A stretch of DNA of 64,000 nt, from assembly GCF_033547075.1 (NCBI RefSeq), contig NZ_CP137891.1:496001-560000 (forward strand), in the 5' to 3' direction. The notes under the pieces are model-generated. The model ran no database searches and was not told where the DNA came from. It worked only from the letters and a program-made list of their open reading frames with translations. Shown here one piece after another: positions 5,041 through 54,238 of this stretch (its first letter is position 1; every line of letters starts with the position of its first letter). The stretch is from Flavobacterium ardleyense (GTDB taxonomy: Bacteria; Bacteroidota; Bacteroidia; Flavobacteriales; Flavobacteriaceae). The position numbers and the translations under genes were made by a program.

Positions 5041-5127
5041 GCTTTCCGTTCCCAATCTTTCTTGTAGCTTTTGCTCTGCAAAGCCACAAGAAAGGATTTG
5101 CTACGCCAGTTCGCTTTGCTCGGGTCC
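5041..5127 (-). repeat. Variable-core hairpin element, copy A (inverted)
   Basis: Read on the minus strand this has the family layout: a conserved left flank ending aaatcc, a palindromic core, then gattgggaacgga. The core arms are 5057-5074 and 5078-5094 with a 3-base loop. The adjoining cgccagttcgctttgctcgg (5105-5124) is shared with the MITE-like repeats at the window start. The gap 4880-5222 otherwise holds only the aspS terminator and diverged sequence. Confidence 0.6.
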
Positions 5128-5222
5128 ATTGTAATCCCTCTCGCGGGGATTGAGGTAAGATTGAAGTTTTTATTGAGGTTGGTGTGAGGTAAATTGGTGG
5201 AGTATTTGCAAAAACTCATTAG

Positions 5223-5969
5223 ATGAAGGAAATACTAATTAATTTTATTTATATTTCAATTTTGAATAATAAAATTTACAAATCATATAGGACTGTGATA
5301 AATCAAACAATAGTAGAACTTAATTCCGAAAGTGCAATTTTGGCGTTATCAACACTTGACTCTATCAAAACTAATTTTGACATATCTCCACAGGAATTCA
5401 TCACATATGCGGAAACTGATTTGGCGAATGACTATTCACATAATACTATAAACGCATTATCAAACGCAAAACGAGCTTTAGATTGTCAGTTGGACTCAAT
5501 ATTAATACTGCTTGGATACTATAATCTCTCTCAAAAAAAGTTTTGGAGTTTTCCTAAAAAAGTAGAGTTGATTAACGACTTAGGAATTATAGCGCCTAAC
5601 ATTCTTAGAAAAATAAACAAACAAAGAAATCTGCTTGAACACCAGTTTGTAAAACCGAGCAGGGAAGATGTTGAAGATTTTTTAGACATCACAACGCTTT
5701 TTATTTCAAGTACTAAAATATTTACATTAAATTTTCCTTCTATAATGCATATACACGACAGAAATGTTGAAAAAATCTATATTTTGGAGAACGAGTATGA
5801 ACATTCGCAGATTAATATATTTGTATACAAGTTCAAAGATTACTTGCCTATTTATCCATCGCAAATAAAAGAGACGGAAACAGATTTACTTGAAAAGCGA
5901 TCATTCTCTATTATTGATAATGACTATAATCAACTTTTAAAATATTATTTAAATCTAATAAAGAAGTAA
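5223..5969 (+). CDS. Hypothetical protein with a HEPN-like motif
   Basis: A 248-residue, mostly helical protein without signal peptide or membrane segment. I do not recognise a named family. Residues 75-100 (helix NAKRALDCQLDSILILLGYY) and 130-145 (KQRNLLEHQFVKP) look like the two core helices of a HEPN domain. R135 and H140 give the Rx4H pattern of catalytically active HEPN ribonucleases. The C-terminal third (about 165-248) looks beta-rich and has no recognisable motif. The codon use is very AT-rich. The gene stands alone between aspS and an immunity-like gene, in an islet bracketed by two hairpin repeats. HEPN proteins often act in toxin-antitoxin or antiphage systems, but no nucleotidyltransferase partner is adjacent. 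The gene is likely real; the function is inferred from the motif. Confidence 0.6.
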   Translation: MKEILINFIYISILNNKIYKSYRTVINQTIVELNSESAILALSTLDSIKTNFDISPQEFITYAETDLANDYSHNTINALSNAKRALDCQLDSILILLGYYNLSQKKFWSFPKKVELINDLGIIAPNILRKINKQRNLLEHQFVKPSREDVEDFLDITTLFISSTKIFTLNFPSIMHIHDRNVEKIYILENEYEHSQINIFVYKFKDYLPIYPSQIKETETDLLEKRSFSIIDNDYNQLLKYYLNLIKK

Positions 5970-6135
5970 TAAAAATAAAGGATTTTAAGTAGTCTTCCCT
6001 GAGAAAAGAAATCATTTAATTATATTAAAATTATAGCGTATAACATTTATATTAATAGATCATAAATTTCAGATAGACTTAATTAAATTAAAAAACCACA
6101 ATTCTGATTCGTACTAAAATCAATTTTGCAAATAG

Positions 6136-6525
6136 ATGAAAACTCTCAAATGCCTTTCCATAATTTTAATATTACTATCGACTTTTTCCATTGCAGCCCA
6201 AAGCAACAATAACAATTCTGAACAAAAATTACGAGCGACGATGGAATTAAAATATGCGTTAAGTAATCAAGTTCAGCATAATCTAATTGATGACAAAAGA
6301 TTAATCATTAAAGATAGTTTGACGGCAATAGCTGTTGCTGAAACAATGCTATTTGAACTTTACAGCAAAAAAAGCATAGAAAAACAAAAACCTTACGAAA
6401 TATTCCTAATCGACAATCATTGGATTATAAATGGAACACTTCCAACAAATAAAGATGGTGGAACCTTCTTGATAATCATTGATGCTCGGAACTCTAAAGT
6501 GATTAAAATTACTCACGGTAAATAG
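6136..6525 (+). CDS. NTF2-fold immunity-like protein (YbbC/YhhH type)
   Basis: A 129-residue protein with a clear signal peptide (cleavage probable after FSIAAQS, about residue 23). The mature part matches the pattern of NTF2-fold immunity proteins: AIAVAETMLFELYSKKSIEK, then QKPYEIFLIDNHWIINGTLP, then a glycine-rich GGTFLIIIDARNSKVIKITHG end. In polymorphic toxin systems such proteins protect against a cognate toxin. No toxin gene is adjacent, so this is an orphan or the toxin is elsewhere. The export signal suggests it works in the periplasm. The domain assignment comes from remembered family features and was not tested by a profile search. Confidence 0.65.
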   Translation: MKTLKCLSIILILLSTFSIAAQSNNNNSEQKLRATMELKYALSNQVQHNLIDDKRLIIKDSLTAIAVAETMLFELYSKKSIEKQKPYEIFLIDNHWIINGTLPTNKDGGTFLIIIDARNSKVIKITHGK

Positions 6526-6635
6526 TTTTATATCGCTTCACTTCTCGGTAAATAGACTCATTTATCTGATTCGCTTTTATACTGGATTTGATATTTCTCA
6601 TTGTTAAGATTACATTTTGCTTAATTTGATACCCA

Positions 6636-6783
6636 ATCCCACAGCCGTGATAGTAGCGGAAATCACGCAGGCAGCAAGGCTATTGTTTCCAGGACCAGAA
6701 GAGCGACCAACGGAAGCTCCTTCTGGGCTTTAGGAAAATAAGCCTTGCAACGAGGAATTGAAGTAAATAGCGCGAATAGCTCC
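6636..6783 (+). repeat. Variable-core hairpin element, copy B (diverged)
   Basis: The left flank cacagccgtgatagtagcgg and the right flank ending gcgcgaatagctcc correspond to the flanks of the copies at 14695 and 54155. The core is larger here: arms 6674-6690 and 6733-6748 (gcaaggct... and ...agccttgc) enclose about 42 bases. The copy is more degenerate than the others and opposite in orientation to copy A. Confidence 0.45.
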
Positions 6784-6863
6784 AAAAGATCACGAAATTG
6801 CGCAATGGAGTACGGGCGAAGTTTTGGGTAATAAAATGATTGCAACCACTCATTAGAATCTAG

Positions 6864-6974
6864 TCGTGTTTTTTAGATGACAAGAAAGAATATTTAAAAA
6901 AAATGAAACCTTCAGATCTGGCCACCACAAAAGAGAGAGCAATTTCTGTTTTGAAAAATATTGAAAAGCTTTAA
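6864..6974 (+). pseudogene. Possible gene remnant (about 36 codons)
   Basis: An open frame runs from just after a stop at 6861-6863 to TAA at 6972-6974. It encodes a lysine-rich segment including DDKKEYLKKMKPSDLATTKE and ends in LKNIEKL. An in-frame ATG at 6903 would give only 23 residues. The composition looks protein-like, so it may be the C-terminal relic of a lost gene. No family is recognised. The gap 6526-7293 otherwise holds copy B, a small palindrome at 7054-7071 (tagagtag-ct-ctactcta) and the csp promoter. Confidence 0.25.
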
Positions 6975-7235
6975 TAACTTCTCTGATAAAAATTCCAACT
7001 TACTTTCGATTCAAAAACTATGCGTCATACGCTTTAAATTCGATTCATAATTCTAGAGTAGCTCTACTCTAAGCTTCGAAATGTTAATTAGAAAATAGGT
7101 ATTTTCCTATCTATTGAAATAAATTTTCGCATTTTTAAAATGAAGTTTTATAAGAATATCAGTGTCAGCGCTTTAAAAATATGGGTTCTTTGACTTGAGC
7201 TGAAAATATTTTTAAATATTTTTTTAAAAAACGCG

Positions 7236-7264
7236 TTGACATATTATATTATAGTCTACATTTG
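7236..7264 (+). promoter_or_regulatory. Promoter of the cold-shock gene
   Basis: TTG at 7236-7238, 18 bases, then TACATTTG at 7257-7264 is a close match to the Bacteroidetes consensus. The ATG at 7294 leaves a leader of roughly 20-25 nt. Confidence 0.65.
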
Positions 7265-7293
7265 CTGGATTATAAATTATTATTACTATTACA

Positions 7294-7494
7294 ATGCGTA
7301 CAGGTACAGTTAAATTTTTCAATGAGTCAAAAGGTTACGGATTCATCACAGACGAAGAAACAGGAAAAGACATTTTTGTTCACGCTTCAGGAATCAGAGC
7401 TGAAGAGCTTAGAGAAGGTGACAGAGTTAGCTATGAAGAAGAAGAGGGAAGAAAAGGTAAAGTTGCTGCTCAGGTAGTTGCCTTGGAAGACTAA
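7294..7494 (+). CDS. Cold-shock domain protein
   Basis: A 66-residue single cold-shock domain (OB fold) that binds single-stranded RNA or DNA. RNP1 is visible as KGYGFI (13-18) and RNP2 as DIFVHA (26-31). The length is normal for CspA-type proteins, which melt RNA secondary structure at low temperature or act as general RNA chaperones. The gene is monocistronic, with a strong promoter 30 bases upstream and a perfect terminator. The leader is short, so the long thermosensing 5' UTR of E. coli cspA is not evident. Which paralogue it is cannot be told. Confidence 0.93.
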   Translation: MRTGTVKFFNESKGYGFITDEETGKDIFVHASGIRAEELREGDRVSYEEEEGRKGKVAAQVVALED

Positions 7495-7526
7495 AATATA
7501 TATATTTTTGTTACCTAAGATTTAGG

Positions 7527-7559
7527 AAAGCGCCTCAAGCAATTGAGGCGCTTTTTTTG
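7527..7559 (+). terminator. Rho-independent terminator of the cold-shock gene
   Basis: aaagcgcctcaa (7527-7538) and ttgaggcgcttt (7543-7554) form a perfect 12-bp stem with loop gcaa, followed by a U-run. Confidence 0.9.
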
Positions 7560-7649
7560 TACAATAGTGTTAAATATTTCCCTCCTTATTTATACTCAGT
7601 AAAAATTACCCGCAATCGTCTGTGCTACTCCATGCATTCTCTATTTGGA

Positions 7650-7680
7650 TTGTATATTAAATTATACAAATGTATATTTG
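7650..7680 (+). promoter_or_regulatory. Promoter of the nuo operon
   Basis: TTG (7650-7652), 20 bases, then TATATTTG (7673-7680), 31 bases before the nuoA ATG. This is the only consensus promoter seen ahead of nuoA; internal promoters were not evident. Confidence 0.6.
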
Positions 7681-7711
7681 TGCCTAAACAATTTTTGAAA
7701 ATTTTACGATA

Positions 7712-8077
7712 ATGCAAACAACTCAGGCGGATTATATTCCAATTTTAATGCAATTTTTACTTGCAGTTGGATTTGTAGTGACAACCATCATTATTTCTGG
7801 CTTATTAGGTCCATCACGTAAGTCCCGAAACAAGGACCGAAACTTTGAGTGTGGTATCGAATCGGTAGGAAACGCACGTGTTCCATTCTCTGTAAAATAC
7901 TTTCTAGTAGCTATCTTATTTGTGCTTTTTGATATAGAGGTGATATTTCTATACCCTTGGGCTGTGAATTTCCGCGAAATGGGAATGGAAGGTCTTATCA
8001 AAATGTCTGTTTTTATGGTACTGCTCTTAATTGGCTTCTTCTACATCTTAAAGAAGAAAGCTTTAGAATGGGAATAA
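7712..8077 (+). CDS. nuoA: NADH-quinone oxidoreductase subunit A
   Basis: A 121-residue membrane subunit of complex I with three transmembrane helices (about 10-30, 66-86, 93-113). The family signature FECGIESVGNARVPFSVKYF spans the loop after helix 1, with its conserved Cys, and FLVAILFVLFDIEVIFLYPW follows. This loop lies near the quinone cavity. First gene of the 14-gene nuoA-N operon; nuoB follows after 96 bases. Confidence 0.96.
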   Translation: MQTTQADYIPILMQFLLAVGFVVTTIIISGLLGPSRKSRNKDRNFECGIESVGNARVPFSVKYFLVAILFVLFDIEVIFLYPWAVNFREMGMEGLIKMSVFMVLLLIGFFYILKKKALEWE

Positions 8078-8173
8078 TATAATTTTCGAAAAAGTCTAAA
8101 ATAGTTTTCTGATTTATTTGAAAAAATGATCTAAACTTCCAATGGATAGTTAAGGTCTGCAAAAACAAAAATT

Positions 8174-8722
8174 ATGAGCGATCAAAAAATAAATATAGTA
8201 GATGCACCCGAAGGCTATACCGGCGAAGGGTTTTTTGCTACAAAATTAAGCGATGTAGTTGGTATGGCAAGAGCAAATTCGCTTTGGCCTTTACCTTTCG
8301 CTACTTCTTGCTGCGGAATTGAATTTATGGCAACGATGGCTTCTCACTACGATATTGCACGTTTTGGATCTGAGCGAATGAGTTTCTCTCCACGTCAAGC
8401 TGATATGTTGCTAGTAATGGGAACAATCGCTAAAAAAATGGGACCTGTTCTTCGTCAAGTTTACGAGCAAATGGCTGAGCCTAGATGGGTTATCGCGGTT
8501 GGAGCTTGTGCCACTTCAGGAGGAATTTTTGATACTTACTCGGTGCTGCAAGGTATTGACAAAGTGATTCCTGTAGATGTTTACGTTCCTGGATGTCCAC
8601 CTCGACCTGAGCAAATTTTAGATGGTGTTTTACGCCTTCAAGATTTGGTGAGAAGCGAGTCAGTACGCAGAAGAAGTTCGCCTGAATATCAGGAATTATT
8701 AGCCTCTTATAATATCAAATAA
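8174..8722 (+). CDS. nuoB: NADH-quinone oxidoreductase subunit B
   Basis: A 182-residue peripheral-arm subunit that carries the terminal Fe-S cluster N2, which passes electrons to quinone. The four cluster ligands are visible: the tandem C46-C47 (TSCCGIEFM), C112 (VGACATSGG) and C141 ([10 protein letters not shown]). The length is normal. The stop and the nuoC start share a base (TAATG), so the two are translationally coupled. Confidence 0.97.
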
Positions 8723-9276
8723 TGGCTTTAGAAAATAATATTATTCAAGAGAAACTCGTAGCTACTTTTGGCAACGATGTTTTTAACTTTGAAACAGATA
8801 AAGATATTTTTACATTCGAAATAACCGCTGAAATCAATCAGGCGGTTATTCTGTTTTTGAAAAATGACCCAATCTTGAAGTTCAATTTTTTGACCGATAT
8901 GTGTGGAATTCACTATCCAAAAAATGAAGACGAAAGGACTTATTGCGTTGTGTATCACATGCACAACTGGATTGATAACAAACGTGTTTTAATCAAAACG
9001 TACTTCAACCAAGAGAAGCCAGACTTAAAAACGATTTCGAATATTTTCGCTTGTTCAAATTGGATGGAGCGCGAAGCTTATGATTTTTACGGAATCAACT
9101 TTATTGGGCATCCACAATTGAAGCGAATTTTGAATATGGATGAGATGACTTCTTTCCCTATGCGTAAAGAATTTCCTTTGGAAGATCAAGGACGTACAGA
9201 CAAGGATGACCGTTTCTTTGGCCGTACTAGAGAAAACCGACCGTTAGACGATCAGTCTACAATCAACAAAATTTAA
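8722..9276 (+). CDS. nuoC: NADH-quinone oxidoreductase subunit C
   Basis: A 184-residue 30-kDa subunit of the complex I connecting module. The signature EREAYDFYGINFIGHPQLKR is intact and a C-terminal FPLEDQGR segment follows. It is separate from nuoD, unlike the E. coli nuoCD fusion. It starts within the nuoB stop and ends 9 bases before nuoD. Confidence 0.95.
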   Translation: MALENNIIQEKLVATFGNDVFNFETDKDIFTFEITAEINQAVILFLKNDPILKFNFLTDMCGIHYPKNEDERTYCVVYHMHNWIDNKRVLIKTYFNQEKPDLKTISNIFACSNWMEREAYDFYGINFIGHPQLKRILNMDEMTSFPMRKEFPLEDQGRTDKDDRFFGRTRENRPLDDQSTINKI

Positions 9277-9285
9277 TTTCACATT

Positions 9286-10521
9286 ATGTCAGGATTACTT
9301 TTACCACCCGAGCACAGATATGCTGAAATAATTCGTCAGAAACGTAATGAAGAAGGAAACGAACTTTCTATTCTAAATTTAGGTCCGACACACCCAGCAA
9401 CCCACGGAATTTTCCAAAATATATTATTGATGGATGGTGAGAGAATTCTCGAAGCCGAACCAACAATTGGATATATTCACCGCGCATTTGAAAAAATCGC
9501 TGAGAATAGACCGTTTTATCAAATTACCCCGCTTACAGACCGAATGAATTACTGTTCTGCTCCTATTAATAATATGGGTTGGTGGTTGACGGTTGAAAAA
9601 GCATTGGGAATTGAAGTTCCAAAAAGAGCGCAATACCTACGAGTAATTGTAATGGAGCTTGCTAGAATTGCCGATCATATTATTTGCAACTCAATTTTGG
9701 GAGTTGATACAGGAGCCTTTACAGGTTTCTTGTACGTTTTCCAATTTAGAGAGAAAATATACGAAATCTACGAAGAAATTTGTGGCGCTAGACTTACCAC
9801 GAATATGGGAAGAATGGGCGGATTTGAAAGAGAGTGGAGTGATGAAGCTTTCAGAAAACTAGAGATTTTCTTAGAAGAATTTCCAGTTGCTTGGGAAGAG
9901 TTTGAAAGTCTTTTTGTTCGAAATAGAATCTTTATTGATCGTACGGTAAACGTAGGAGCAATATCTGCTGAGCAAGCAATTGGTTACGGATTTACTGGTC
10001 CAAATTTACGTGCTTGTGGTGTTGACTACGATGTACGTGTAAATGAACCTTATAGTTCTTACGAAGATTTTGATTTTATCGTTCCGGTAGGACAATCGGG
10101 AGATACGTATGATCGTTTTTGCGTTCGTAACGCTGAAGTTTGGGAAAGTTTAAAAATTATTAGACAAGCTCTTGACAAATTACCAGAAGGACCTTACCAC
10201 GCGGATGTTCCTGATTATTATCTGCCTCCAAAAGAGGATGTATATAATGATATGGAAGCATTAATCTACCACTTCAAGATTGTAATGGGAGAAATTCCTG
10301 TTCCAGTAACCGAAGTATATCAGGCGGTAGAAGGTGGAAATGGTGAACTTGGTTTTTACCTGCACACTGATGGAAGTCGTACTCCATACAGATTGAAATT
10401 CAGAAGACCTTGCTTTATATTTTATCAAGCTTATCCTGATATGATCAAAGGATCGATGCTTTCGGATGCGATTGTAATTCTTTCGAGTCTGAACGTAATC
10501 GCTGGAGAACTGGACGCTTAA
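9286..10521 (+). CDS. nuoD: NADH-quinone oxidoreductase subunit D
   Basis: A 411-residue 49-kDa subunit that with NuoB forms the quinone-binding site. Conserved features include [18 protein letters not shown] near residue 30, [16 protein letters not shown] with its conserved His, and the C-terminal [18 protein letters not shown]. It is related to the large subunit of [NiFe] hydrogenases but lacks the nickel-binding cysteines. A gap of 76 bases before nuoE contains one copy of the gaaagcc motif (10545-10560). Confidence 0.97.
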
Positions 10522-10597
10522 ATTCAAAAATGACCTTTTTTTAATTCGGCGAAAGCCAAAACTTTTTTCGAATTCAAAAAAAACAACACAATACAAA

Positions 10598-11125: not shown

Positions 11126-11126
11126 G

Positions 11127-12494: not shown

Positions 12495-12606
12495 GCTTTC
12501 GCCAAATAGATACAGGATTACAAAATCTAAAATAATACTAAGAAGTTTCGGCAGATTATCCTGCGAAAAAGTTGAAACACTTTTGAAGCTTTAAAAAAAT
12601 ATAGTT

Positions 12607-13648: not shown

Positions 13649-14680
13649 ATGGATAGTACAATTATAATTGAAAAGAGTGTTATAATCGTCGCGGTATTTG
13701 CCTTGACAATGATTATGGCGATGTACTCTACCTGGGCTGAGCGTAAAGTTGCGGCTTTCCTACAGGATAGAATTGGTCCTAACCGAGCGGGAGCTTGGGG
13801 ACTTTTGCAGCCATTGGCAGATGGATTAAAACTTTTCTCGAAAGAGGAGTTTTCTCCAAATACGCCGAATAAATTTCTATTTATTGTAGGTCCAGCAATT
13901 GCGATGAGCACCGCTTTGATGACAAGTGCTGTGATTCCGTGGGGAGATAGACTGCATCTATTTGGTCGAGATATTATCTTGCAAGCAGCGGATATTGATA
14001 ATGCGCTACTTTATATTATTGCAATATTATCTGTTGGTGTTTACGGAATTATGATTGGTGGATGGGCCTCAAACAATAAGTTTTCACTTATGGGAGCTGT
14101 TCGTGCATCGTCGCAAATGATTTCTTATGAAGTTGCAATGGGTCTTTCGATTATTGCACTATTGATGATGACAGGTACTTTGAGCTTACGCGAAATATCC
14201 TATCAGCAGTCTGGAATGAATTGGAATGTTTTTTACCAACCACTATCGTTCTTGATTTTCTTAATTTGTTCGTTTGCAGAAACCAATAGAACACCTTTTG
14301 ACCTTGCCGAATGTGAGACAGAGCTTGTAGGTGGTTATCATACTGAATATTCATCGATGAAAATGGGATTCTACCTATTTGCTGAGTATGCCAATATGTT
14401 TATCTCTGCTACAATTCTAGCCGTACTATATTTTGGAGGATACAATTATCCTGGAATGTCATGGGCGGTTGAAAATTGGGGAATTAATATCGCGAACGTT
14501 ATAGGAATGCTTGTTCTATTTGTAAAAATATGTGCGTTTATATTCTTTTATATGTGGGTTCGTTGGACGATACCACGTTTTAGATATGACCAATTGATGA
14601 ACTTAGGTTGGAAGATATTGATTCCGCTTTCGATCTTCAATATTATGATAACAGGACTTGTGATTCTATTATTTGAATAA
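13649..14680 (+). CDS. nuoH: NADH-quinone oxidoreductase subunit H
   Basis: A 343-residue membrane subunit with about eight helices that joins the peripheral arm to the proton-pumping arm and lines the quinone tunnel. The signature AERKVAAFLQDRIGPNRAG (about 28-46) and the acidic loop ETNRTPFDLAECETELVGG (about 210-230) are intact. It starts 4 bases after nuoG. The 123-base gap to nuoI contains a variable-core hairpin element. Confidence 0.97.
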   Translation: MDSTIIIEKSVIIVAVFALTMIMAMYSTWAERKVAAFLQDRIGPNRAGAWGLLQPLADGLKLFSKEEFSPNTPNKFLFIVGPAIAMSTALMTSAVIPWGDRLHLFGRDIILQAADIDNALLYIIAILSVGVYGIMIGGWASNNKFSLMGAVRASSQMISYEVAMGLSIIALLMMTGTLSLREISYQQSGMNWNVFYQPLSFLIFLICSFAETNRTPFDLAECETELVGGYHTEYSSMKMGFYLFAEYANMFISATILAVLYFGGYNYPGMSWAVENWGINIANVIGMLVLFVKICAFIFFYMWVRWTIPRFRYDQLMNLGWKILIPLSIFNIMITGLVILLFE

Positions 14681-14694: not shown

Positions 14695-14783
14695 GTGCCC
14701 TAGCCCCGATAGCAGTGAAATCCTTTTATGTTTTTTCTTTTAAAAAACATAAAAGATTGGAACGGATAGCGGGAAATAGCTCC
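14695..14783 (+). repeat. Variable-core hairpin element, copy C, inside the nuo operon
   Basis: Left flank gtgccctagccccgatag at 14695-14712, running on to aaatcc. The core is a perfect 14-bp stem: cttttatgtttttt (14723-14736) with aaaaaacataaaag (14742-14755), loop ctttt. Right flank gattggaacggatagcggg, then aaatagctcc, to 14783. It lies between nuoH and nuoI in operon sense, so it is transcribed with them. Confidence 0.65.
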
Positions 14784-14803
14784 AAAAAAAAATAAAAAAT
14801 AAA

Positions 14804-15343
14804 ATGTCAATAGAAACTATATCATTATCAGGCCGTAAAAAAGTGGTTTCCAATAAGGAGATGACTTTTTGGGAGCGTATGTATTTGATTGCGATCCTTA
14901 AAGGATTATGGACTACTTTGAAGCACCTTTTTACTAGAAAAGTGACCATAAAATATCCTGAAGAGACAAGAGAATTTAGTCCAGTTTACCGCGGTCAACA
15001 CATGCTAATGCGTGATGATGAAGGTCGCGAACGCTGTACTGCCTGCGGACTTTGTGCACTTTCATGTCCAGCAGAAGCCATAACAATGGTGGCATCTGAG
15101 CGCAAAGCAGACGAAAAACATTTGTACCGTGAGGAGAAATATGCATCGATCTATGAGATTAATATGCTTCGTTGTATTTTCTGCGGATTGTGTGAAGAAG
15201 CTTGTCCAAAAGAGGCAATTTATCTTACAAAATCTAAAAAATTAGTTGCTTCAGAATATGATCGTGAAGATTTTATTTACGGCAAAGAGAAGTTGGTAAT
15301 GCCACTTGATGAAGCAATTTCTAACACAAAGAAAAAAGCATAA
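14804..15343 (+). CDS. nuoI: NADH-quinone oxidoreductase subunit I
   Basis: A 179-residue ferredoxin-like subunit with two [4Fe-4S] clusters (N6a/N6b). The ligands are CTACGLCALSCPAEAI and CIFCGLCEEACPKEAI. The N-terminal amphipathic region (LKGLWTTLKHLF) docks on NuoH. The nuoJ start follows the stop after 3 bases. Confidence 0.96.
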   Translation: MSIETISLSGRKKVVSNKEMTFWERMYLIAILKGLWTTLKHLFTRKVTIKYPEETREFSPVYRGQHMLMRDDEGRERCTACGLCALSCPAEAITMVASERKADEKHLYREEKYASIYEINMLRCIFCGLCEEACPKEAIYLTKSKKLVASEYDREDFIYGKEKLVMPLDEAISNTKKKA

Positions 15344-21558: not shown

Positions 21559-22399
21559 GCTGTCAGCCTTTAGCTTTTAGCCTGTTTTGATGGCGGAAAT
21601 TGATCTGACTTTAAACGGTTCAGTCGCCGCGCTAGTGCGAGAGTACTCGCTCGTTTCCACAAGCCAAGTCAAACATTGTATCTTAGGTAATATTTTCAAG
21701 CGGTTTCACCGAGAAGTTATTCTGTGGTTAGTACTTCGCTAGCAAAATTTCTTACCTATAAAATTTCAAGATTCATAATTTCCTTTTGGGTGTGCCCTAT
21801 TTCCTGCTTTTAAGGAGCAGGAAATAGGTCGGCCTATCCACTATATCTTTTTTATAGCTTTTGCATTCGCAAAGCTATAAAAAAGGATGCCGTTGCTATG
21901 CCTCACACGGGGGAGAAGTCAGCTGTCAGCTTTTAGCTATTAGCGTATTTTGAGGGCGGTTCTAGTGGTGACTATTACACGCTCAGTCGCCGATAAATCA
22001 CGACGGTGGTTGCAATGTCGAAACCACAACGTCTTCGAAGGCTATGATTAAAACTCAGTCGCAATCTTTCGCTACACACTTCCGCAAGCCGCGCTGCTGC
22101 GAGCGTCTTCACTCGTTCTCGTAAGTCAAATTATGGTACTATATCAATATGAGACTTCGATAGGCTTAGTCATCTGTACTTAAAGTCGGTGGTTGCAATG
22201 TCGAAACCGAAAACTCAGCACTTTTAATATCTTAACATCGACGTGCAGGCAACACGTCTCGTTGTGCCGTAACGTACAGACAAGGCATGCTTTGTCTCTG
22301 CAGAATCAATTTTCACAAAAATCATTATCCAAATAATCACCCATTGCCTACCCGCCATCAACAAAACTCTTAACCGTAAACTGTCAACCGTAAACTATA
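21559..22399. repeat. Repeat-rich intergenic region between queD and the OmpA gene
   Basis: No gene is supported in this roughly 840-base stretch. Two diverged direct repeats occur: agctgtcagc-(t/c)tttagct, ggcgg, cagtcgccg near 21559-21630 again at 21919-21992, and gccgcgct-gtgcgag, ctcgtt, aagtcaaa near 21624-21674 again at 22090-22132. ggtggttgcaatgtcgaaac appears at 22003 and again at 22191. Small hairpins include ggcaac-N8-gttgtgcc near 22248-22268 and agacaaggcatgctttgtct at 22278-22297. A variable-core element lies at 21796-21900. Confidence 0.5.
21796..21900 (-). repeat. Variable-core hairpin element, copy D (inverted)
   Basis: On the minus strand it reads aacggcatcc, palindromic core, gatatagtgga, the same flanks as copy E (aacggcatcc and gatacagtgga). 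The core arms are 21847-21864 and 21869-21885 with a 4-base loop. The distal flank contains a second hairpin, cctatttcctgc and gcaggaaatagg, between 21796 and 21828. Confidence 0.6.
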
Positions 22400-45947: not shown

Positions 45948-46024
45948 AATCAGAATTATTTAGAATCAAATTTATTAAAAGTTTCAAGATGAACTACAGT
46001 GGGGAAAAGAAAATATTGAGAATT

Positions 46025-46702: not shown

Positions 46703-46837
46703 AGAAATTCACTTTTATTAAGGCTGCAAGATACTTGTATCTATTATAATTCAGCAATTTTATTTTAAAGATGTTTTAAATAAACCATCATGCTTTTAAA
46801 AAAAAATCTTTTAATAGATTCTATAACACTCCAAATT

Positions 46838-47250: not shown

Positions 47251-47310
47251 TCATTTCGCTCTTTTCGATTTTTACCTTACCTTTAGATCTTTAAAAAATT
47301 CACCCTAATT

Positions 47311-49215
47311 ATGAGAAAAGTTCTTTTATTAATTCTTTTACAAATGCCGTTTTCTACGCTTGTTGCACAAAAAGTAATGACCCCCGAGTTGCTGATGCAA
47401 ACCGCAAGAGTATCGCCTTTAGGAATCTCTAAAGATGGAAATAATGTAGTTTATAAAATATCGACTCCCGCAATTGAAGGCAATCGTCTTGATACACGGT
47501 TCTATTCTCAGCCAATTCTTTCAGGCGCAGCGGTAGAAATTTCAGATTACCAGCCACTTTTACATGATAAAAGCATCTCGCCAGACGGCAAATACACGGT
47601 TTATTTTCAGCAAGTAAAAACCGAGCAAATCACCGGTAATGATTATTATCCCGCGCTTAAACTTTCGAAAGTTCAAATATATGATGGCTTGAATTACCGT
47701 CATTGGGATAAGTGGAATATGGGCTTTAGAAACCACGTGTTTTACAAAAAAAACGAAAAAAGATCCAATCCAATTGATATTATGGAGGGTGAAAACTTCG
47801 ATTCGCCACAAATGCCTTTTGGTGGAGACGAAGATTTTTTATGGTCGCCAAATGGTAAAAGCATTTTATATGTTTCTAAAAAGAAAGCAGGTACAGACTA
47901 TGCAACTTCTACCAATACCGATATTTACGAATATAATTTAGAAACTAAAGAAACAATAAATCGTACTGAAGGAAATATGGGTTACGACACGCAACCAGCA
48001 TTTTCTCCACAAGGACATCTCACCTATCTTCAGATGAAGAGAGATGGTTATGAAGCAGACAAAAATGACATCATTGTCGATTTTATGGGTGTCAAAATGA
48101 ACCTTACCGCTCAGTGGGACGGAACAGTTGACAGTTTTAAATGGAGCGAAGATGGAAAGAAGATTTACTTTCTAGCTGCTGTTGATGGAACAAAACAACT
48201 TTTTGAAGTGAACTTCCCAGGAAAATCAAGAATTGCAGTTCACGTGAACCAACTTACAGATGGCTATTTTGATGTAAATGCAATCGTCGGATTTGCAAAA
48301 GGGAAGGTGATTGTATCAAGAACAGATATGAATCATGCTTCGGAAATTTATTCATATGATTTGAAGAAAAAATCTTGGAACCAGATTTCGAATGCAAATA
48401 AAGATATGTATGACGGAATGGCGATGAGCAAAACCGAAAAACGTTATGTTACTACCACAGATGGTAAAAAAATGCTGGTTTGGGTAATTCTTCCTCCAAA
48501 TTTTGACGCTAACAAAAAGTATCCAACTTTATTATATTGCCAAGGTGGACCACAATCTGCGCTAACTCAATTTTACTCTTTCCGTTGGAATTTTCAAGTA
48601 ATGGCTGCACAAGGTTATATCATTGTTGCACCAAATAGAAGAGGAATGCCAGGTCACGGAGTGGAATGGAATGAAGCGATTAGTAAAGATTGGGGTGGAC
48701 AAGTAATGGACGATTACTTATCTGCGATTGATGATGTATCAAAAGAAAAATACGTAGACAAAGACAGGCTTGGCGCAGTTGGAGCAAGTTATGGCGGCTA
48801 TTCTGTATTTTACCTTGCGGGAATTCATAACAACCGATTTAAAACATTTATCGCTCACGATGGAGTTTTTAACCTAAAGAGTATGTACGGAACAACTGAA
48901 GAAGTTTTCTTTAGCAACTGGGATTCGGGTGGAAACTACTGGGATAAAAATAATGCTATAGCTCAGAAAACATTTATGAAATTTGACCCAAGTAATTTGG
49001 TTGACAAATGGAATACTCCAATTTTGATTTATCAAGGAGGAACAGATTTTAGAGTGCCAATCGGACAAGGTCAAGAAGCTTTTCAAGCAGCCCAGCTGAT
49101 GGGAATTAAAAGTAGATTTGTTTACTTTCCAGAAGAAAATCATTGGGTTTTAAAACCACAAAATGCACTTGTATGGCAAGCAGAATATTTTAGATGGCTT
49201 AAAGAAACTTTGTAA
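47311..49215 (+). CDS. S9-family prolyl oligopeptidase, secreted
   Basis: A 634-residue exported serine peptidase with a signal peptide (to about residue 19, ending TLVAQ). The N-terminal part is a beta-propeller (about 40-380) with WSPNGKSILYVSKKK-type blades. The C-terminal alpha/beta-hydrolase domain has the nucleophile in VGASYGGYSVFYLAG (Gly-x-Ser-x-Gly-Gly), the Asp in YQGGTDFRVPIGQG and the His in FPEENHWVLK. The family cleaves short peptides, often after proline or as acyl- or dipeptidyl-aminopeptidases. The exact specificity is not set by these motifs. It acts in the periplasm or is surface-exposed. It is a monocistronic gene with a terminator. Confidence 0.9.
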   Translation: MRKVLLLILLQMPFSTLVAQKVMTPELLMQTARVSPLGISKDGNNVVYKISTPAIEGNRLDTRFYSQPILSGAAVEISDYQPLLHDKSISPDGKYTVYFQQVKTEQITGNDYYPALKLSKVQIYDGLNYRHWDKWNMGFRNHVFYKKNEKRSNPIDIMEGENFDSPQMPFGGDEDFLWSPNGKSILYVSKKKAGTDYATSTNTDIYEYNLETKETINRTEGNMGYDTQPAFSPQGHLTYLQMKRDGYEADKNDIIVDFMGVKMNLTAQWDGTVDSFKWSEDGKKIYFLAAVDGTKQLFEVNFPGKSRIAVHVNQLTDGYFDVNAIVGFAKGKVIVSRTDMNHASEIYSYDLKKKSWNQISNANKDMYDGMAMSKTEKRYVTTTDGKKMLVWVILPPNFDANKKYPTLLYCQGGPQSALTQFYSFRWNFQVMAAQGYIIVAPNRRGMPGHGVEWNEAISKDWGGQVMDDYLSAIDDVSKEKYVDKDRLGAVGASYGGYSVFYLAGIHNNRFKTFIAHDGVFNLKSMYGTTEEVFFSNWDSGGNYWDKNNAIAQKTFMKFDPSNLVDKWNTPILIYQGGTDFRVPIGQGQEAFQAAQLMGIKSRFVYFPEENHWVLKPQNALVWQAEYFRWLKETL

Positions 49216-49222
49216 TTTTATT

Positions 49223-49254
49223 AAAACCTCACTTTCAACAGTGAGGTTTTTTTT
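49223..49254 (+). terminator. Rho-independent terminator of the S9 peptidase
   Basis: aaaacctcact (49223-49233) pairs with agtgaggtttt (49240-49250), followed by a U-run. Confidence 0.9.
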
Positions 49255-49295
49255 GCTTTTAACAAATATTAAACGATGGCATTTTTGAAATCTTC

Positions 49296-49303
49296 TATCT
49301 TTG
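49296..49303 (+). promoter_or_regulatory. -7 element of the hybrid histidine kinase gene
   Basis: TATCTTTG ends 4 bases before the ATG at 49308. A TTG at the usual distance is missing. If used, the transcript would have almost no leader. Confidence 0.4.
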
Positions 49304-49307
49304 AAAA

Positions 49308-51749
49308 ATGAGTGCTAAAAAAAGTTACATTCCGCTAAAACTGCTATTGAGTTATATAGCGCTTGCGGCCCTAGTAGGTGTGGTAGCCTGGTTTTTGTAC
49401 TCAGAAAATACGCTTTTTACAAAAAATGAAAATAAGATAACTGTCGAAAATCAGAAGATTTTAAAAGTTAGCCAGCTGCTATCCAATATGTACAAAGCAG
49501 AGAGTTTTGTGCGAAGTACACTTCAATCTGATTCGAATGCAGAATTTAATAATTATACACAGCAGATTGATACGTTAAAAAACGAAATTGATTCGCTAAA
49601 AACTTTGACCAATAGCGATTACCAAAAGGTGTTACTTGATAGTGTCAAAATACTTCTTTCTCAGAAAACCGAGAATATCCGCCAATTGAAAATTATAAAA
49701 TCAAAAGGTACTGATGATCTCGCTATAAAAACAGCCCTGCAAAAGATTGACAAGATGGAAGGTCGATTGCGTAAACTAGAGATTGAAGATCTCTTTAAAA
49801 ATCCATCCAAACTACAAAGCAATCAACGACGCGTTTGGGAAAAATACGTCGAATACATCAATAGCAACGTTCCTAACGATAGCACGAATACTCTGAGTCA
49901 GAAGGCATTGGATTCTATGCTTACAGTATCAAAAAAGGCGCTGAAAGATGTTGTCCTTGCCACCGCAAGCAAAAAGGAATCTCTCGCCGTACAAGAACAA
50001 AAACTTCTAGATAACGAAATTCTTATCTCTGAGAAGCTCCGTCGAATTGTAAACATTCTAGAAAAAGAGCTGGTACAAAACATCACTATCAACACTGAAA
50101 ACCGCGAAAAAAGTCTTCAAAAAACCAATAAGATTGTTGCCTACGCCGCTTTGGTGGGTTTTGTCTTAACCATTTCGTTTTTAGTACTAATTTTAAATGA
50201 CTTTTCGAAATCACAATCGTACAAGAAACAATTAGAATCCGCGAATAGAGCTACTGAGAAACTACTTAAAAATCGCGAACAACTGATTGCCACGGTTAGT
50301 CACGATTTAAAAACACCTTTAAATACGATTCTTGGTTATACTGAATTGCTCAGCACTTCTGAATTATCTAAAAAACAACTCAACTACACTTCGAATATAA
50401 AAGGATCATCTGAATATATTTCCAAACTAGTTCAGGATTTACTAGATCTTACCCAAATTGAAGCAGGTAAAATTTCGATCGAAGCTTTGCCATTTTCACT
50501 TCGAAAATATATCGAAGAAGTGGCTACTAACATTCAAGCAATTTATCATACAAAACCCATCGAACTTGAGATTTATATTGACGAAAGTCTTGATGGATTA
50601 ATTGTTGGAGATTCATTTAGACTTCGACAAATATTAACCAATTTGATCGGAAATGCGTACAAATTCACCAACGAAGGAAGCATCAGAATCGAAGCTGCTG
50701 CAAATGAATTTCTGAAGACATTTACCATAAAAGTAATTGATACTGGAATCGGAATCGATCTCAGTAAACAGCAAATTATTTTTGAAGAATTCCGTCAAGC
50801 GGATGACAGCGTCGTGAAAAAATATGGCGGTAGCGGACTTGGTTTAACTATCTCCAAAAAGATGGCGGAACTTTTGGGTGGAAATCTACAACTTGAAAGT
50901 GAAGTTGGTGTTGGAAGTACGTTCGTTCTGATTTTTCCACTAATCAAATCTACAAAGATAGAAAAAGTCGAGGATTTAGTTCCGCTTTCTAGTCTAAACT
51001 TGACCGCGATTGTCGTTGATGATGACGAAGGATTACTCTCCTTAACTACGGAAGTTTTGCAAAACGCCAAAATAAAAGTCCTGAGTTTCAGCAATCCTCT
51101 ATTAGCATTGCAAGCAGCAAAAAACAACGATTTCGATTTTATAATTTCGGATATTCAGATGCCGATTATTGACGGTTTCAAACTTTTGAAATTGATTCAA
51201 ACTGACTCTGACAACAACTTTTCCGAACAGCCGACAATCGCCTTGACTGGAAGAACAGATTTGGCAGATTCAGAATACTACGATGCAGGTTTTACAAAAG
51301 TCGTAAAGAAACCGTATACCCCAAATGCGCTGCTAAATTGCATTTCCAAATTGTTCCAAGCACAGCAAAATGATTTAGAATTAACTTCGGAAACGATTGA
51401 TAACAAATCTTTTTATTTGGATGATCTCCGAGCTTTTACAGCTTCTGATGAGAATAAGTTGGTGGAGATTTTGAAGATATTTATCAATAAAAGCAGATTA
51501 AATTTAGAAGCACTTCAAACAGCTTATGAAGGTCGAGATGAAAATACAATATCGAACATTTGCCATCAAATGCAGCCAATGCTCAGACAACTGAGAGCAA
51601 CAAAAATTGCTAATCAATTATCGGAATACGAGAGAGAGCCAGCAAATATTTTTATAAATGCTGAAGGTTTTCCAAATATAAAAAATGAGATTTCGGACTT
51701 ATTAAATGAAATAGAAGACAGTGTTAATAATCCAGATCGTATTTCTTGA
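49308..51749 (+). CDS. Hybrid sensor histidine kinase with receiver and Hpt-like domains
   Basis: An 813-residue inner-membrane sensor. Two membrane helices (about 10-30 and 279-300) frame a helical, coiled-coil periplasmic sensor of about 245 residues with no recognised fold. The cytoplasmic part has a HisKA domain with H332 (ATVSHDLKTPLNT), an HATPase domain (N box LIGNAYKFTNEG, then DTGIGID and GGSGLGLTISKKMAELLGG), a receiver domain with D615 (FIISDIQMPIIDGF), and a C-terminal helical domain with H753 (NICHQMQPMLRQL) that resembles Hpt. All phosphorelay residues are present. It converges with the NtrC-type regulator gene with a 26-base 3' overlap. The two may form one pathway; this is inference from position. 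Confidence 0.88.
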   Translation: MSAKKSYIPLKLLLSYIALAALVGVVAWFLYSENTLFTKNENKITVENQKILKVSQLLSNMYKAESFVRSTLQSDSNAEFNNYTQQIDTLKNEIDSLKTLTNSDYQKVLLDSVKILLSQKTENIRQLKIIKSKGTDDLAIKTALQKIDKMEGRLRKLEIEDLFKNPSKLQSNQRRVWEKYVEYINSNVPNDSTNTLSQKALDSMLTVSKKALKDVVLATASKKESLAVQEQKLLDNEILISEKLRRIVNILEKELVQNITINTENREKSLQKTNKIVAYAALVGFVLTISFLVLILNDFSKSQSYKKQLESANRATEKLLKNREQLIATVSHDLKTPLNTILGYTELLSTSELSKKQLNYTSNIKGSSEYISKLVQDLLDLTQIEAGKISIEALPFSLRKYIEEVATNIQAIYHTKPIELEIYIDESLDGLIVGDSFRLRQILTNLIGNAYKFTNEGSIRIEAAANEFLKTFTIKVIDTGIGIDLSKQQIIFEEFRQADDSVVKKYGGSGLGLTISKKMAELLGGNLQLESEVGVGSTFVLIFPLIKSTKIEKVEDLVPLSSLNLTAIVVDDDEGLLSLTTEVLQNAKIKVLSFSNPLLALQAAKNNDFDFIISDIQMPIIDGFKLLKLIQTDSDNNFSEQPTIALTGRTDLADSEYYDAGFTKVVKKPYTPNALLNCISKLFQAQQNDLELTSETIDNKSFYLDDLRAFTASDENKLVEILKIFINKSRLNLEALQTAYEGRDENTISNICHQMQPMLRQLRATKIANQLSEYEREPANIFINAEGFPNIKNEISDLLNEIEDSVNNPDRIS

Positions 51750-53061
51750 TCTTATTATAAAGAGTCTTACGATTAATCTGCAGGAGTTTTGCTGCTTCAG
51801 ATTTGTTGTTGTTAGTCATTTCTAGCGCATTGATAAGCGCTGCTTTTTCGTTGTCGCTGATTGATATCAAATCATCCGAATCTGAAATTTCTATATCAAA
51901 TAGCTCTTGTGGTAAAACGGATGTTTCGATAAAATCACCTTTGCTCAATAAAGTCGCACGTTTAATCACGTTTTGCATTTCGCGTAGATTTCCAGGCCAT
52001 TTGTATCTCTGAAAAATCGCAATCGTTTCAGAAGAAAACCCTACGAGTTCTCTATTTAATTGCTCGTTTGATTTGTGCAGAAAGAATTCCGCAAAGACCA
52101 TTAAATCCGCCCCTCGATCACGTAAAGCGGGAGAAGAGATGGAAAATTCATTAATACGATGGTACAAATCTTCTCGAAAAGTTCCGTTCTTAACAGCTGT
52201 CCTTAAATCTTCGTTGGTAGCACAAATAACTCGAATATCTACCGCGATTTCTTTGTTACTTCCCACCGGTTTAATTTTCCGCTCTTGCAAAGCACGCAAA
52301 AGTTGTACTTGGTTTTCATACGATAAATTCCCTATTTCGTCCAGGAAAATTGTTCCACCATTCGCAGCTTCAAAATAGCCAATTTTGTCATTGACCGCTC
52401 CGGTGAAAGATCCTTTTTGATGTCCAAAGAATTCACTCGCCGCTAGATCTTTCGGAATTGTTCCGCAATCTACCGCTACAAATGCTTTGTTACTCCTAGA
52501 GCTTTTTTTGTGGATATTGGCAGCTATAACTTCCTTTCCAGTCCCACTTTCTCCAATTATTAATACCGAAATATCGGTAGGACCAACCAGATCAATATGT
52601 TCAGCTAGTTGTCTTGAAGTTTCAGAAACTCCTAAAACATATTCGGAATTAGATTTTTTATCGGTAGGTTTTGGTTGTTCATTTTTTGTTTCGGGAACTG
52701 TTTTGTCATTCAAGATCTTTGCAACGACAAGTAAAACTTCTTCAGGGTTAAGAGGTTTTGTAATATAATCTGAAGCGCCATTTTTAAGGGCTTTTACAGC
52801 CGTCGCGACATCAGAATAACCGGTCATAAGTATGACTGGAGTTGTTGGAAACTGCGTTAATAAATTTACCATCAAATCGATTCCGTCATCATCGGGCAAT
52901 CTCAAATCTGTTATAAATAAATCGAATGAGTGCTCCGCTGCTAACTCCTTCGCTGATTGAGCAGAATACGCTGTTTGCACGTCATAATGATTTCGCGTCA
53001 AAAAGGAAGATAACATTTTGCAAAAAGCAACATCGTCATCAATAACCAAAATTCTGTTCAT
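51724..53061 (-). CDS. Sigma-54-dependent response regulator (NtrC family)
   Basis: A 445-residue activator. A receiver domain (1-120) has the phospho-acceptor D52 (FITDLRLPDDDG). The AAA+ domain (about 145-370) has Walker A GESGTGK (170-176), the sigma-54 contact loop GSFTGA (217-222) in place of GAFTGA, and Walker B GGTIFLDEIG. The C-terminal Fis-type HTH (about 405-445) contains NNNKSEAAKLLQINRKTLYN. The Ala-to-Ser change in the contact loop is conservative. The target promoters are unknown; a sigma-54-like site precedes the next gene on this strand. It overlaps the kinase gene by 26 bases. Confidence 0.93.
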   Translation of the reverse strand: MNRILVIDDDVAFCKMLSSFLTRNHYDVQTAYSAQSAKELAAEHSFDLFITDLRLPDDDGIDLMVNLLTQFPTTPVILMTGYSDVATAVKALKNGASDYITKPLNPEEVLLVVAKILNDKTVPETKNEQPKPTDKKSNSEYVLGVSETSRQLAEHIDLVGPTDISVLIIGESGTGKEVIAANIHKKSSRSNKAFVAVDCGTIPKDLAASEFFGHQKGSFTGAVNDKIGYFEAANGGTIFLDEIGNLSYENQVQLLRALQERKIKPVGSNKEIAVDIRVICATNEDLRTAVKNGTFREDLYHRINEFSISSPALRDRGADLMVFAEFFLHKSNEQLNRELVGFSSETIAIFQRYKWPGNLREMQNVIKRATLLSKGDFIETSVLPQELFDIEISDSDDLISISDNEKAALINALEMTNNNKSEAAKLLQINRKTLYNKIKKYDLDY

Positions 53062-53202
53062 ATCTGCAATTAGAGTTTTTGCTAAATTAGAAATATTTAT
53101 AATCAGCTGCTCACAAAATATCGCTAAAAAAAAGGAGGAACTGCCATAGACAGTTCCCCCAATCCTAAAATAACTTACCCAAATTATTTAGTTTTCTACT
53201 TT

Positions 53203-53505
53203 TTATTTGTTAAGCCAAGTACCATTCGCATCTGCAAACAGTAATCCTCTTTGACCTTCAACTTCCACTTCTAGTTGATAATCTTTTTCCGTACCCACTG
53301 ATGCTTTATGCAAAATTGCAGTTGGATAAGCTTTTTTAAGAGCGTCAGTAATTACTGTTGGCACTTCACTAACTTGAATTTCTTTGTATTGTGCTTCTTG
53401 CTCCTGAGTTGTTTTTGCTTCACTACTTTTTGTCTGTGCATTCGCCGTTGGTGCAAAAGTTAATGATGCTATTAAAATGGTAACTGGTAGGATGAACTTT
53501 TTCAT
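53203..53505 (-). CDS. Small exported PepSY-like protein
   Basis: A 100-residue protein with a signal peptide (residues 1-23, ending TANAQ). The mature 75 residues contain one PepSY-like (beta-lactamase-inhibitor-like) unit: VSEVPTVITDALKKAYPTAI, then HKASVGTEKDYQLEVEVEG and a final GLLFADANGTWLNK. Such domains occur in periplasmic proteins of unclear function, sometimes linked to envelope sensing. It lies upstream of the NtrC-type regulator on the same strand, 141 bases before it, and has a possible sigma-54 site in its leader. Confidence 0.7.
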   Translation of the reverse strand: MKKFILPVTILIASLTFAPTANAQTKSSEAKTTQEQEAQYKEIQVSEVPTVITDALKKAYPTAILHKASVGTEKDYQLEVEVEGQRGLLFADANGTWLNK

Positions 53506-53558
53506 AATATTAAATTTTATAAATTATAATTGATTTTTTTGGTTGTTATATATCCTAT

Positions 53559-53574
53559 TGGGAAAATTGTGCCA
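53559..53574 (-). promoter_or_regulatory. Sigma-54-like -24/-12 site before the PepSY-like gene
   Basis: On the minus strand the sequence TGGCAC-AATTT-TCCCA has a perfect -24 element at the right spacing, but the -12 GC is replaced by CC. It would start transcription about 45 bases before the ATG. This is a partial match. Confidence 0.35.
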
Positions 53575-53718
53575 AACCACGACTGGCGGTCTATTCCTAT
53601 ATAATCTCTTTACCTATAGACTTTTGAGAACATTATTGCAAATGTCTACGTTTTCTAGAATGGGTAAATAGCGACTATAACTGTGTAAATTGTACACAAA
53701 TTAGATGGTCTGCTGAAA

Positions 53719-54017
53719 TAAATCCGCGCTATCGGGAATAGAAAAGTCGAAATAAGTGAAAATTGAAATAATAGAATAATAGAAATAAGCTAAATAAACT
53801 AAAACGCGAAAAGCCGAAATGTAATTCAATGAGAAATGTGATGCAGTTGGCGGGCACGGATTATAAATCTGCGCTATCGGATATCGGGCGATAGAAAAAT
53901 CGAAATAAGAGAATAATCGAAATAAGGTAAATAAACTAAAACGCGAAAAGCCGAAATTTTATTCAATGAGAAATGTGATGCAGTTGACGGGCACGGATTA
54001 TAAATCCGCGCTATCGG
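53719..54017. repeat. Tandem duplication of a ~140-base intergenic unit
   Basis: Unit 1 (53719-53864) and unit 2 (53865-54001) share aaatccgcgctatcgg at the start, then gaaataag, taaataaactaaaacgcgaa, aagccgaaat, attcaatgagaaatgtgatg cagttg and gcacggattataaat at the end. A third unit begins at 54002 and decays by 54017. The ends contain the palindrome ggattataaatcc. No gene is seen in 53506-54310. Confidence 0.7.
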
Positions 54018-54154
54018 AGTTGTATCTACCGCTGTATCCGGACTGAGTAAGTAAAGTCACGTTTTGGAAAGGAAGTTGAAAAAAATAGAATAATCGAAGG
54101 GATTAATATAAATAGGATAACTATTGGAGAAAAATTATTTCAAATTAGCAGAAG

Positions 54155-54238
54155 TGCCCTAGCCCTGATGGGAACGGCATCCTTTCTCGCCCTTTTTCTG
54201 GGCGAGAAAGATACAGTGGACAGCAGGAAATAGCTCCA
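54155..54238 (+). repeat. Variable-core hairpin element, copy E
   Basis: Left flank gtgccctagccctgatggga, then acggcatcc, to 54183. The core is a perfect 11-bp stem: ctttctcgccc (54183-54193) and gggcgagaaag (54201-54211). Right flank gatacagtggacagcaggaa, then atagctcc, to 54238. The flanks match copies C and D while the stem sequence does not. Confidence 0.65.

Follow-up and report, generated by a model that had tools for sequence, protein, structure and literature searches.

How can a dispersed DNA element keep its flanks while the hairpin between them differs from copy to copy? The question was raised by the window analysed here, the whole stretch of 64,000 nucleotides at positions 496,001 to 560,000 of contig NZ_CP137891.1 of Flavobacterium ardleyense. 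A sequence-only reading of this window had pointed to five such copies (A to E, Table 1) and to similar elements, with no described function, in other Flavobacterium genomes. The latter point was right. The elements are filed under Flavo-1 (RF01705), a family known since 2010. The element is larger than that reading had taken it to be, as in many copies the Flavo-1 hairpin forms only one of the arms of a three-way junction.

The five copies belong to the Flavo-1 family

All five places proved to be related elements of one family, as had been proposed. With the Rfam covariance model RF01705, copies C, E and D scored 73.1, 73.5 and 53.4 bits, respectively, above the curated gathering cut-off of 42 bits. 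Copy B fell below the cut-off (28.7 bits, E 0.058), and copy A was not reported even at E<=1. Copy A, the 5′ arm of which is broken up by extra bases, was recovered with our own three-way-junction model, R1 (33.2 bits, E 1.6e-5). The perfect stems described for copy C (14 bp) and copy E are present in the sequence, by eye. Two details had to be revised. Copies B, C and E are plus-strand elements, whereas A and D are minus-strand elements. Moreover, the shared flanks define a real family but not a single set, with TAGCCC...GGAAATAGCTCC in C and E and GYGNGAGG...CCCAAA in A and D. The family comprises at least two architectures, the three-way junction and a type I form, copy B being a long-core subtype.

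In the F. ardleyense genome (3.19 Mb, one contig), RF01705 gave at least 100 matches at E<=1e-3, 94 of them above the cut-off, with 150 of 952 candidates scored. At least 120 matches were obtained with R1 (150 of 1348 candidates scored), in a list overlapping the Rfam list. We examined 91 of the 100 Rfam matches further, leaving out the nine weakest, three of which were above the cut-off.

The survey of Weinberg et al. 2010, in which Flavo-1 was listed, takes it for a probable RNA that is probably not cis-regulatory (PMC2864571). In F. psychrophilum, hits lie sense and antisense to transcribed regions and many lie outside them; no function was drawn from these hits (Guerin 2021, PMC9723704). 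Searches of the open-access literature by family name, by accession and for such repeats returned no function for Flavo-1, and neither the larger structure nor its way of changing is described in the literature searched.

A three-way junction around the Flavo-1 hairpin

We examined 92 F. ardleyense copies, the 91 fetched matches and copy A. Eighty could be parsed. A closing stem, P0, with four or more pairs was present in 46, and in 45 of the 92 the Flavo-1 hairpin was one arm of a three-way junction. The order along the element is P0, P1 (the Flavo-1 hairpin), usually GA, then P3, P0′ and CC(A/T)AA. These copies are 87 to 181 bases long and their P0 has four to six pairs, with the variants GCGAGA/TCTCGC, GCGTG/CACGC, GCGCAA/TTGCGC, GTGTG/CACAC, GCGTT/AACGC and GCATT/AATGC. 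Copy D shows all parts: P0 GTGTG/CACAC, the P1 Flavo-1 hairpin, a 13-bp P3 and a CCAAA tail. Its minimum-energy RNA fold contains all three helices.

Covariation was measured in an alignment of 44 rows, named A1, from which one poorly fitting copy (L063) and one duplicate had been removed. In A1, 90.6% of the cells are paired, as compared to 73.7% after shuffling. Both sides have changed in 23 of the 31 pairs, and the covariation score is 0.450 versus 0.141 for shuffled rows. The values for pairing, double changes and covariation were reached by none of 500 shuffles, while the number of pair types was reached by 13 of 500; these shuffle and slide controls leave the kinship among copies in place. 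The P0 partner in A1 was taken as the best-pairing one before the CC[AT]AA tail, which favours P0 pairing in this alignment. That bias is absent in the same form from two further sets, obtained with model R1, which was built from A1. R1 has matches in 37 of 40 other Flavobacterium genomes. Double changes were found in 25 of 31 pairs among 28 R1 matches from 26 other genomes, and in 22 of 31 pairs among 16 R1 matches at viral loci. Both sets were aligned to R1 and so lean towards the model; their sequences had no part in building it. In each of the three sets, most rows lack pairing at the sixth position of P0.

The check suggested earlier, a covariance model and a genome-wide collection of copies, gave pairing far above shuffles, and the case in which the cores are random remnants without excess pairing is excluded by the same shuffles.

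Thirty-four copies recognised by pattern, C and E among them, are of type I. They match R1 more weakly, have only an AGC/GCT closing stem and are devoid of P3. Type I may be a reduced form of the three-way junction.

Stems are exchanged at a fixed site between nuoH and nuoI

Copy C offers a fixed site at which the change of the stem can be followed. We compared 80 nuoH-nuoI loci, that of F. ardleyense and 79 others, titled Flavobacterium for the most part. A parsable element occupies the spacer in 43 of the 80 loci (42 of the 79 others), with 32 distinct tips. The tips are mostly paired up to the loop (imperfectly in L187, L196, L199 and L211), and many are alike in their T-run/A-run composition. 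Mean pairwise identity is 0.83 in the arms, a value inflated because arms were found by a pattern allowing at most one mismatch each; it is 0.59 in the tip (0.43 with one of the two shuffled) and 0.49 in the upstream flank. The other 37 of the 80 loci, some with visibly decayed elements, remained unparsed.

An example is provided by F. frigoris (L161) and F. gillisiae (L162), with near-identical surroundings and the hairpin top TGAACCTTTTCA in the one versus GCCGCGGC in the other. Paralogues within genome G016 behave similarly. L380a and L380b are about 90% alike over 517 bases, yet their tips differ; L380b and L380c carry an identical 119-base element in more diverged flanks. Stems have thus been exchanged without loss of pairing. 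The earlier proposal that pairing is kept, and not sequence, is thereby supported both among paralogues, by the covariation sets, and at a fixed site.

At several nuoH-nuoI loci the hairpin is gone and a short AGCTTC-like remnant is left; other loci lack even that, and some copies are decayed. Such losses would speak for a chance collection of palindromes in decay, unstructured and unconstrained; however, the shuffle and slide controls in three sets and a covariation far above shuffles leave that explanation a negligible probability.

Two side observations concern the same spacer. The palindrome CCGATAGCTATCGG stands in nine places in eight loci (L166, L181, L182, L198, L207, L211, L234 and L237), and three of the nine are the Flavo-1 slot between nuoH and nuoI. 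In eight loci (L172, L178, L184, L193, L203, L226, L233 and L236) the spacer measures 644-820 bases and seemingly holds an extra open reading frame (ORF), ORF6N-like by eye.

Wobble pairs are rare in the exchanged stems

The tip stems are near-pure Watson-Crick. In other genomes, 3 G-T and 2 A-C were counted in 644 tip pairs. The F. ardleyense count is 19 G-T and 1 A-C in 831 pairs, many of the 19 coming from one subfamily. The arms contain 15 G-T and no A-C in F. ardleyense, and 4 G-T and 1 A-C in other genomes. For the whole structure, the G-T/A-C counts are 32/7 of 1335 pairs and 10/4 of 788 pairs, respectively. The excess of G-T over A-C hints that the strand of the Rfam model may be the folded one; related copies drive this excess and it is weak in the independent set. 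Energy folds of both strands of four copies gave no decision between the strands. In a count of loops intended to tell RNA from DNA, 232 hairpins, drawn from sets that may overlap, had no GNRA loops, no CUUCGG loops and 18 CGNAG loops, most of the latter from one subfamily and so of little weight.

Few wobbles are expected where, in the course of replication, one arm is repaired from its partner. The observed rarity fits template switching, without proving it. According to Monttinen and Loytynoja 2022, a single template-switch event can create or repair a perfect stem (PMC8794818). Selection on pairing together with some share of template-switch-type mutation is the simplest account of the stems. 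What keeps the pairing, put down earlier to selection or a copying mechanism, may partly be such a mutational mechanism and not selection alone.

Features of the window

The five copies and the two genes around copy C are collected in Table 1. Long cores like that of copy B occur in L045, L057, L067 and in a copy of another species (L224), and all five have a similar inner GCGACCAACGGAAGCTC-like stretch.

Table 1. Flavo-1 elements and adjacent genes (positions in the window)
Feature	Position	Strand	Basis and remarks
Copy A, three-way-junction type	4978..5144	-	GCGAG/CTCGC closing stem, CCCAAA tail; R1 match (4978-5144)
Copy B, long-core Flavo-1 subtype	6639..6781	+	RF01705 match below cut-off (6639-6781); similar cores elsewhere
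Copy C, type I, in the nuoH-nuoI spacer, sense to both genes	14698..14786	+	RF01705 (14698-14780); R1 36.6 bits at 14702-14786
Copy D, full three-way junction	21785..21917	-	RF01705 (21823-21917); R1 73.8 bits at 21785-21908
Copy E, type I, 11-bp tip stem	54157..54240	+	RF01705 (54157-54234); R1 41.7 bits at 54161-54240
nuoH, upstream of copy C	13649..14680	+	Pfam NADHdh, E 5.9e-119; name from operon reading
nuoI-like 4Fe-4S gene, downstream of copy C	14804..15343	+	Pfam Fer4 and related; name from operon position, by eye

The element is scattered as a unit

Within the genus, copy number ranges from 0 (G018 and G020) to at least 65 per genome, with at least 100 in F. ardleyense. R1 matches were found in 22 of 148 genomes drawn across the phylum, F. 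ardleyense included. A Sphingobacterium faecium plasmid carries one element, which ends at a distance of 6 bases from a recombinase stop codon. When plasmids and phages were searched with copy C by blastn, the only matches were weak and partial ones, from unrelated bacteria and phages.

Several pairs of G016 copies are alike over the element alone, the ends of the homology being the first P0 base and CCCAAA; in the pairs L380d/L393 and L382/L387 the match is confined to the element. Other G016 pairs additionally share about 240 bases upstream. Between sufD and sufS, the F. ardleyense copy is missing from all four relatives, among 29 fetched, that keep sufD beside sufS, and two of these have 35-base spacers. 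The pattern fits a gain in the F. ardleyense lineage, or a loss in the relatives. Among 30 loci, that of F. ardleyense and seven more have the copy between sucA and sucB, antisense to these genes (identified with Pfam); an arm is altered in one of the seven, L347, and one further locus is decayed. Because this copy is common to several genomes, some sites must be old.

A REP (repetitive extragenic palindrome) moved by a RAYT or IS200-type Y1 transposase would explain the REP-like lifestyle. F. ardleyense has six Y1_Tnp matches, and a 2018 study reports that Bacteroidetes TnpA genes of subclass 2.6 are flanked by atypical structures with copies elsewhere (PMC6006769). Several results disagree with this explanation. 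Y1_Tnp was absent from three near-complete genomes with high copy number. None of the six F. ardleyense Y1 loci has a Flavo-1 match above the cut-off, two having one just below, and two RAYT-like loci of this genome are seemingly flanked by other repeats, by eye. The GT[AG]G foot is absent from A1. For Y1 enzymes detectable with Pfam the explanation is largely refuted, and we regard it as highly improbable overall. Neither Y1/RAYT transposases nor reverse transcriptases track copy number.

The following observations were made on the way. At the two IS200-like Y1_Tnp loci L032 and L033 there are Acido-Lenti-1 (RF01687) matches, five below threshold and one over it; these hairpins are possibly used by that Y1 transposase. 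The RAYT-like genes at L034:1429-2288 and L035 are followed or flanked by other short repeats, by eye, possibly the REP family of those genes. More than 1.5 kb of sequence shared upstream of L047, L048, L061 and L065 had suggested an autonomous partner, and this candidate was dropped as the four are rRNA operon ends of F. ardleyense, by eye. Each of them holds a three-way-junction copy behind a 5S-like stretch, also by eye, and the homology breaks off at CGCCCAAA, give or take a few bases. In G016, an integron-like array was likewise set aside as a local small-ORF repeat and not a general feature: at L380:4800-8900, by eye, small ORFs form an array in which a conserved stretch of 240 bases has the element at its end. 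RHS-like ORFs are seen by eye near other copies.

Elements in viral contigs and at gene ends

Pattern scans of IMG/VR returned 1, 45, 25 and 5 stretches. With R1, full-length elements were found in 16 viral contigs, of which about 14 are distinct once identical stretches are merged; two loci new in the last IMG/VR scan were outside the R1 scan, and L424 looks chromosomal by its neighbours. In nine viral contigs (L425, L407, L406, L419, L418, L426, L411, L422 and L267) the element is antisense and starts -4 to 71 bases past the stop of a terminase-like gene of 531-579 residues. The L418 and L407 proteins match phage proteins annotated as terminase. The remaining ones connect to this pair at identities of 35-51%, or 90% in the case of L426. 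In the microvirus-like contig L245 (capsid by eye, replication initiation protein by PHROG) the element lies behind the replication gene, again antisense.

These contigs could indicate a phage-derived site with a function in Bacteroidota phages, be it in packaging, in replication or at a transcription end, from which the chromosomal copies would descend. In nine of about 14 distinct contigs the place and orientation are the same although the proteins are 20-51% identical to each other, the 90% pair excluded, and L245 adds a replication gene. Against this, chromosomes hold far more copies than viral contigs. Around the related terminase in eight phage records (seven of them named), 4.1-6.7 kb of sequence gave no match at E<=10, one record (MT732435) ending about 150 bases past the terminase match. 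Two elements used as blastn queries had no hit among 50,697 phage records at E<=0.01. Only two of the nine proteins reach the PHROG terminase large subunit family, and none of the six scanned matched in Pfam. We consider a phage origin improbable.

The position of stop codons bears on a further explanation. We recorded which end of the ORF next to the CCCAAA end faces the element, using mechanical ORFs of at least 100 amino acids and the best-scoring copy per genome (25 copies, L359 having been dropped from 26). In other genomes, 21 of 25 copies have a stop towards the element, three a start and one neither. The corresponding numbers for 15 viral copies are 12, 1 and 2. By two-sided binomial tests, 21 of 24 gives about 3e-4 and 12 of 13 gives 3e-3. 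In F. ardleyense there is no such bias, with 24 stops versus 20 starts for 45 three-way-junction copies and 18 versus 15 for 34 type I copies. Thirty of these 34 type I copies lie between co-directional ORFs, 13 sense and 17 antisense. An intrinsic terminator would show a stem with a U run behind it. By eye, what comes after the plus-strand structure is A-rich, and when type I copies are read on the reverse strand the T run precedes the stem.

The main rival to a mobile element is favoured by this placement: a gene-end RNA role, in which the transcript of the neighbouring gene carries the structure past its stop, with the structure protecting or making up the 3′ end or serving as a protein-binding site and the spread being a side effect. 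The plasmid copy behind the recombinase gene, the nine elements behind terminase-like genes and the reverse strand of copy D, which folds as well as the forward strand, agree with it. The 25 copies are, however, the best-scoring ones and not a random draw, and the bias is missing from F. ardleyense. The element is sense to its genes at nuoH-nuoI and antisense at sucA-sucB, with arms kept in both. There are few G-U pairs, and the F. psychrophilum hits are sense, antisense and in many cases outside transcribed regions (PMC9723704). This leaves a gene-end RNA unlikely, though well ahead of a phage site.

A proposed mobile element with recognised arms and rewritten stems

Taken together, we tentatively favour, at slightly below an even chance, a mobile, REP-like element that folds as a single strand, with arms and junction recognised and stems rewritten. 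The REP-like mobile lifestyle follows from the unit copies in unrelated flanks, the span of copy numbers and the occurrence in viral contigs and on a plasmid. Direct observation covers the structure, through covariation, the replacement of tips at a fixed site, the homology over the element alone and the distribution.

In this model, the element is palindromic, dispersed and non-coding, measures about 75-180 bases and would have Flavo-1 as its central hairpin. A single strand, presumably of DNA and not RNA, would fold into the three-way junction, with P0, P1 with its conserved internal loops, P3 and usually a CCAAA tail. A protein would recognise the conserved parts, that is the arms, the internal loops, the junction GA and the tail, and an enzyme acting in trans would move the element. 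The stems would need only to pair, their sequence being free, and would be rewritten, most simply, by template switching across the hairpin during replication, by exchange between copies and by short palindromes swapped in.

A number of results weigh against this model. No mobilising enzyme was found in searches for Y1_Tnp and RVT_1: Y1_Tnp is absent from near-complete G004, G029 and G030, each with at least 64 copies, and RVT_1 was not found in F. ardleyense, which also argues against a SINE-like (short interspersed nuclear element) retroelement. From these absences, neither a Y1 transposase nor a reverse transcriptase appears to be needed today. Neither a target-site duplication nor a polymorphic insertion between close strains could be demonstrated. 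F. ardleyense has no replication-strand bias (39 leading versus 52 lagging, with the origin assumed at dnaA). That arms persist at nuoH-nuoI and sucA-sucB, and that terminase-like genes which have diverged still have the element behind them, suggests that it does more than spread selfishly. Finally, the F. ardleyense excess of G-T over A-C comes partly from related copies and is small elsewhere, so that it does not decide which strand folds. RNA folds of the phage elements were no better than shuffles for L407 (57 of 200 as good) and only slightly better for L418 (28 of 200 as good).

A broader view, which we regard as doubtful, would make these elements a class of mobile gene-end elements apart from REPs, insertion sequences and attC sites. 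The class would be common to Bacteroidota chromosomes, plasmids, tailed phages and single-stranded DNA microviruses, with a three-way junction, stems under continual palindrome exchange and arms and junction fixed, and would be kept directly behind the terminase gene in divergent phages for a function.

Comparison with known systems

The likeness to Flavo-1 as published is in the arms, the internal loops and the variable distal stem (PMC2864571). The RF01705 model is a 76-position hairpin; it is extended here by P0, P3 and the tail, and to viral contigs and a plasmid.

REPs and REPINs are likewise short, dispersed, mostly intergenic, non-coding palindromes with about a hundred copies and subfamilies (PMC2817692, PMC6006769). 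They differ in being simple hairpins tied to Y1 enzymes, whereas the present element is a three-way junction without such a tie, and its stems are replaced wholesale. The GT[AG]G 5′ foot of REPs was not found, since P0 in A1 starts with GCG, GTG or GCA and type I with CTAGCC or TTAGCC; nor was a cognate Y1 transposase flanked by copies.

The attC site of integrons is a folded single-strand site with a conserved base and a variable terminal structure, closed by the core pair GTTRRRY / RYYYAAC. The Flavo-1 element shares the plan of a folded single strand with conserved base and variable end. It differs by lacking the 3′ AAC core and by being scattered singly, bar the one small G016 array. An AAC end was found in none of 28 other-genome and none of 16 viral matches, an integrase not having been searched for; A1 rows were left out of this comparison as their CC[AT]AA tail is imposed by the pattern.

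Template-switch mutation resembles the present case in that pairing persists while sequence changes. It has been described for rRNA and microRNA genes (PMC8794818), whereas we propose it for a bacterial repeat at a fixed site, along with exchange of whole palindromic tips.

The packaging RNA of phage phi29 is a three-way junction. The viral Flavo-1 copies have this form in common with it and adjoin terminase-like genes; the many chromosomal copies set them apart. No Rfam packaging-RNA family was detected in a scan of 13 sources, which included five viral loci carrying the element; only Flavo-1 reached a gathering score.

Flavo-1 has been listed yet unexplained since 2010, and the larger structure turns it into a searchable model. 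The fixed site with exchanged stems is a natural experiment on palindrome evolution, and the viral position provides a defined place in phage genomes for a functional test.

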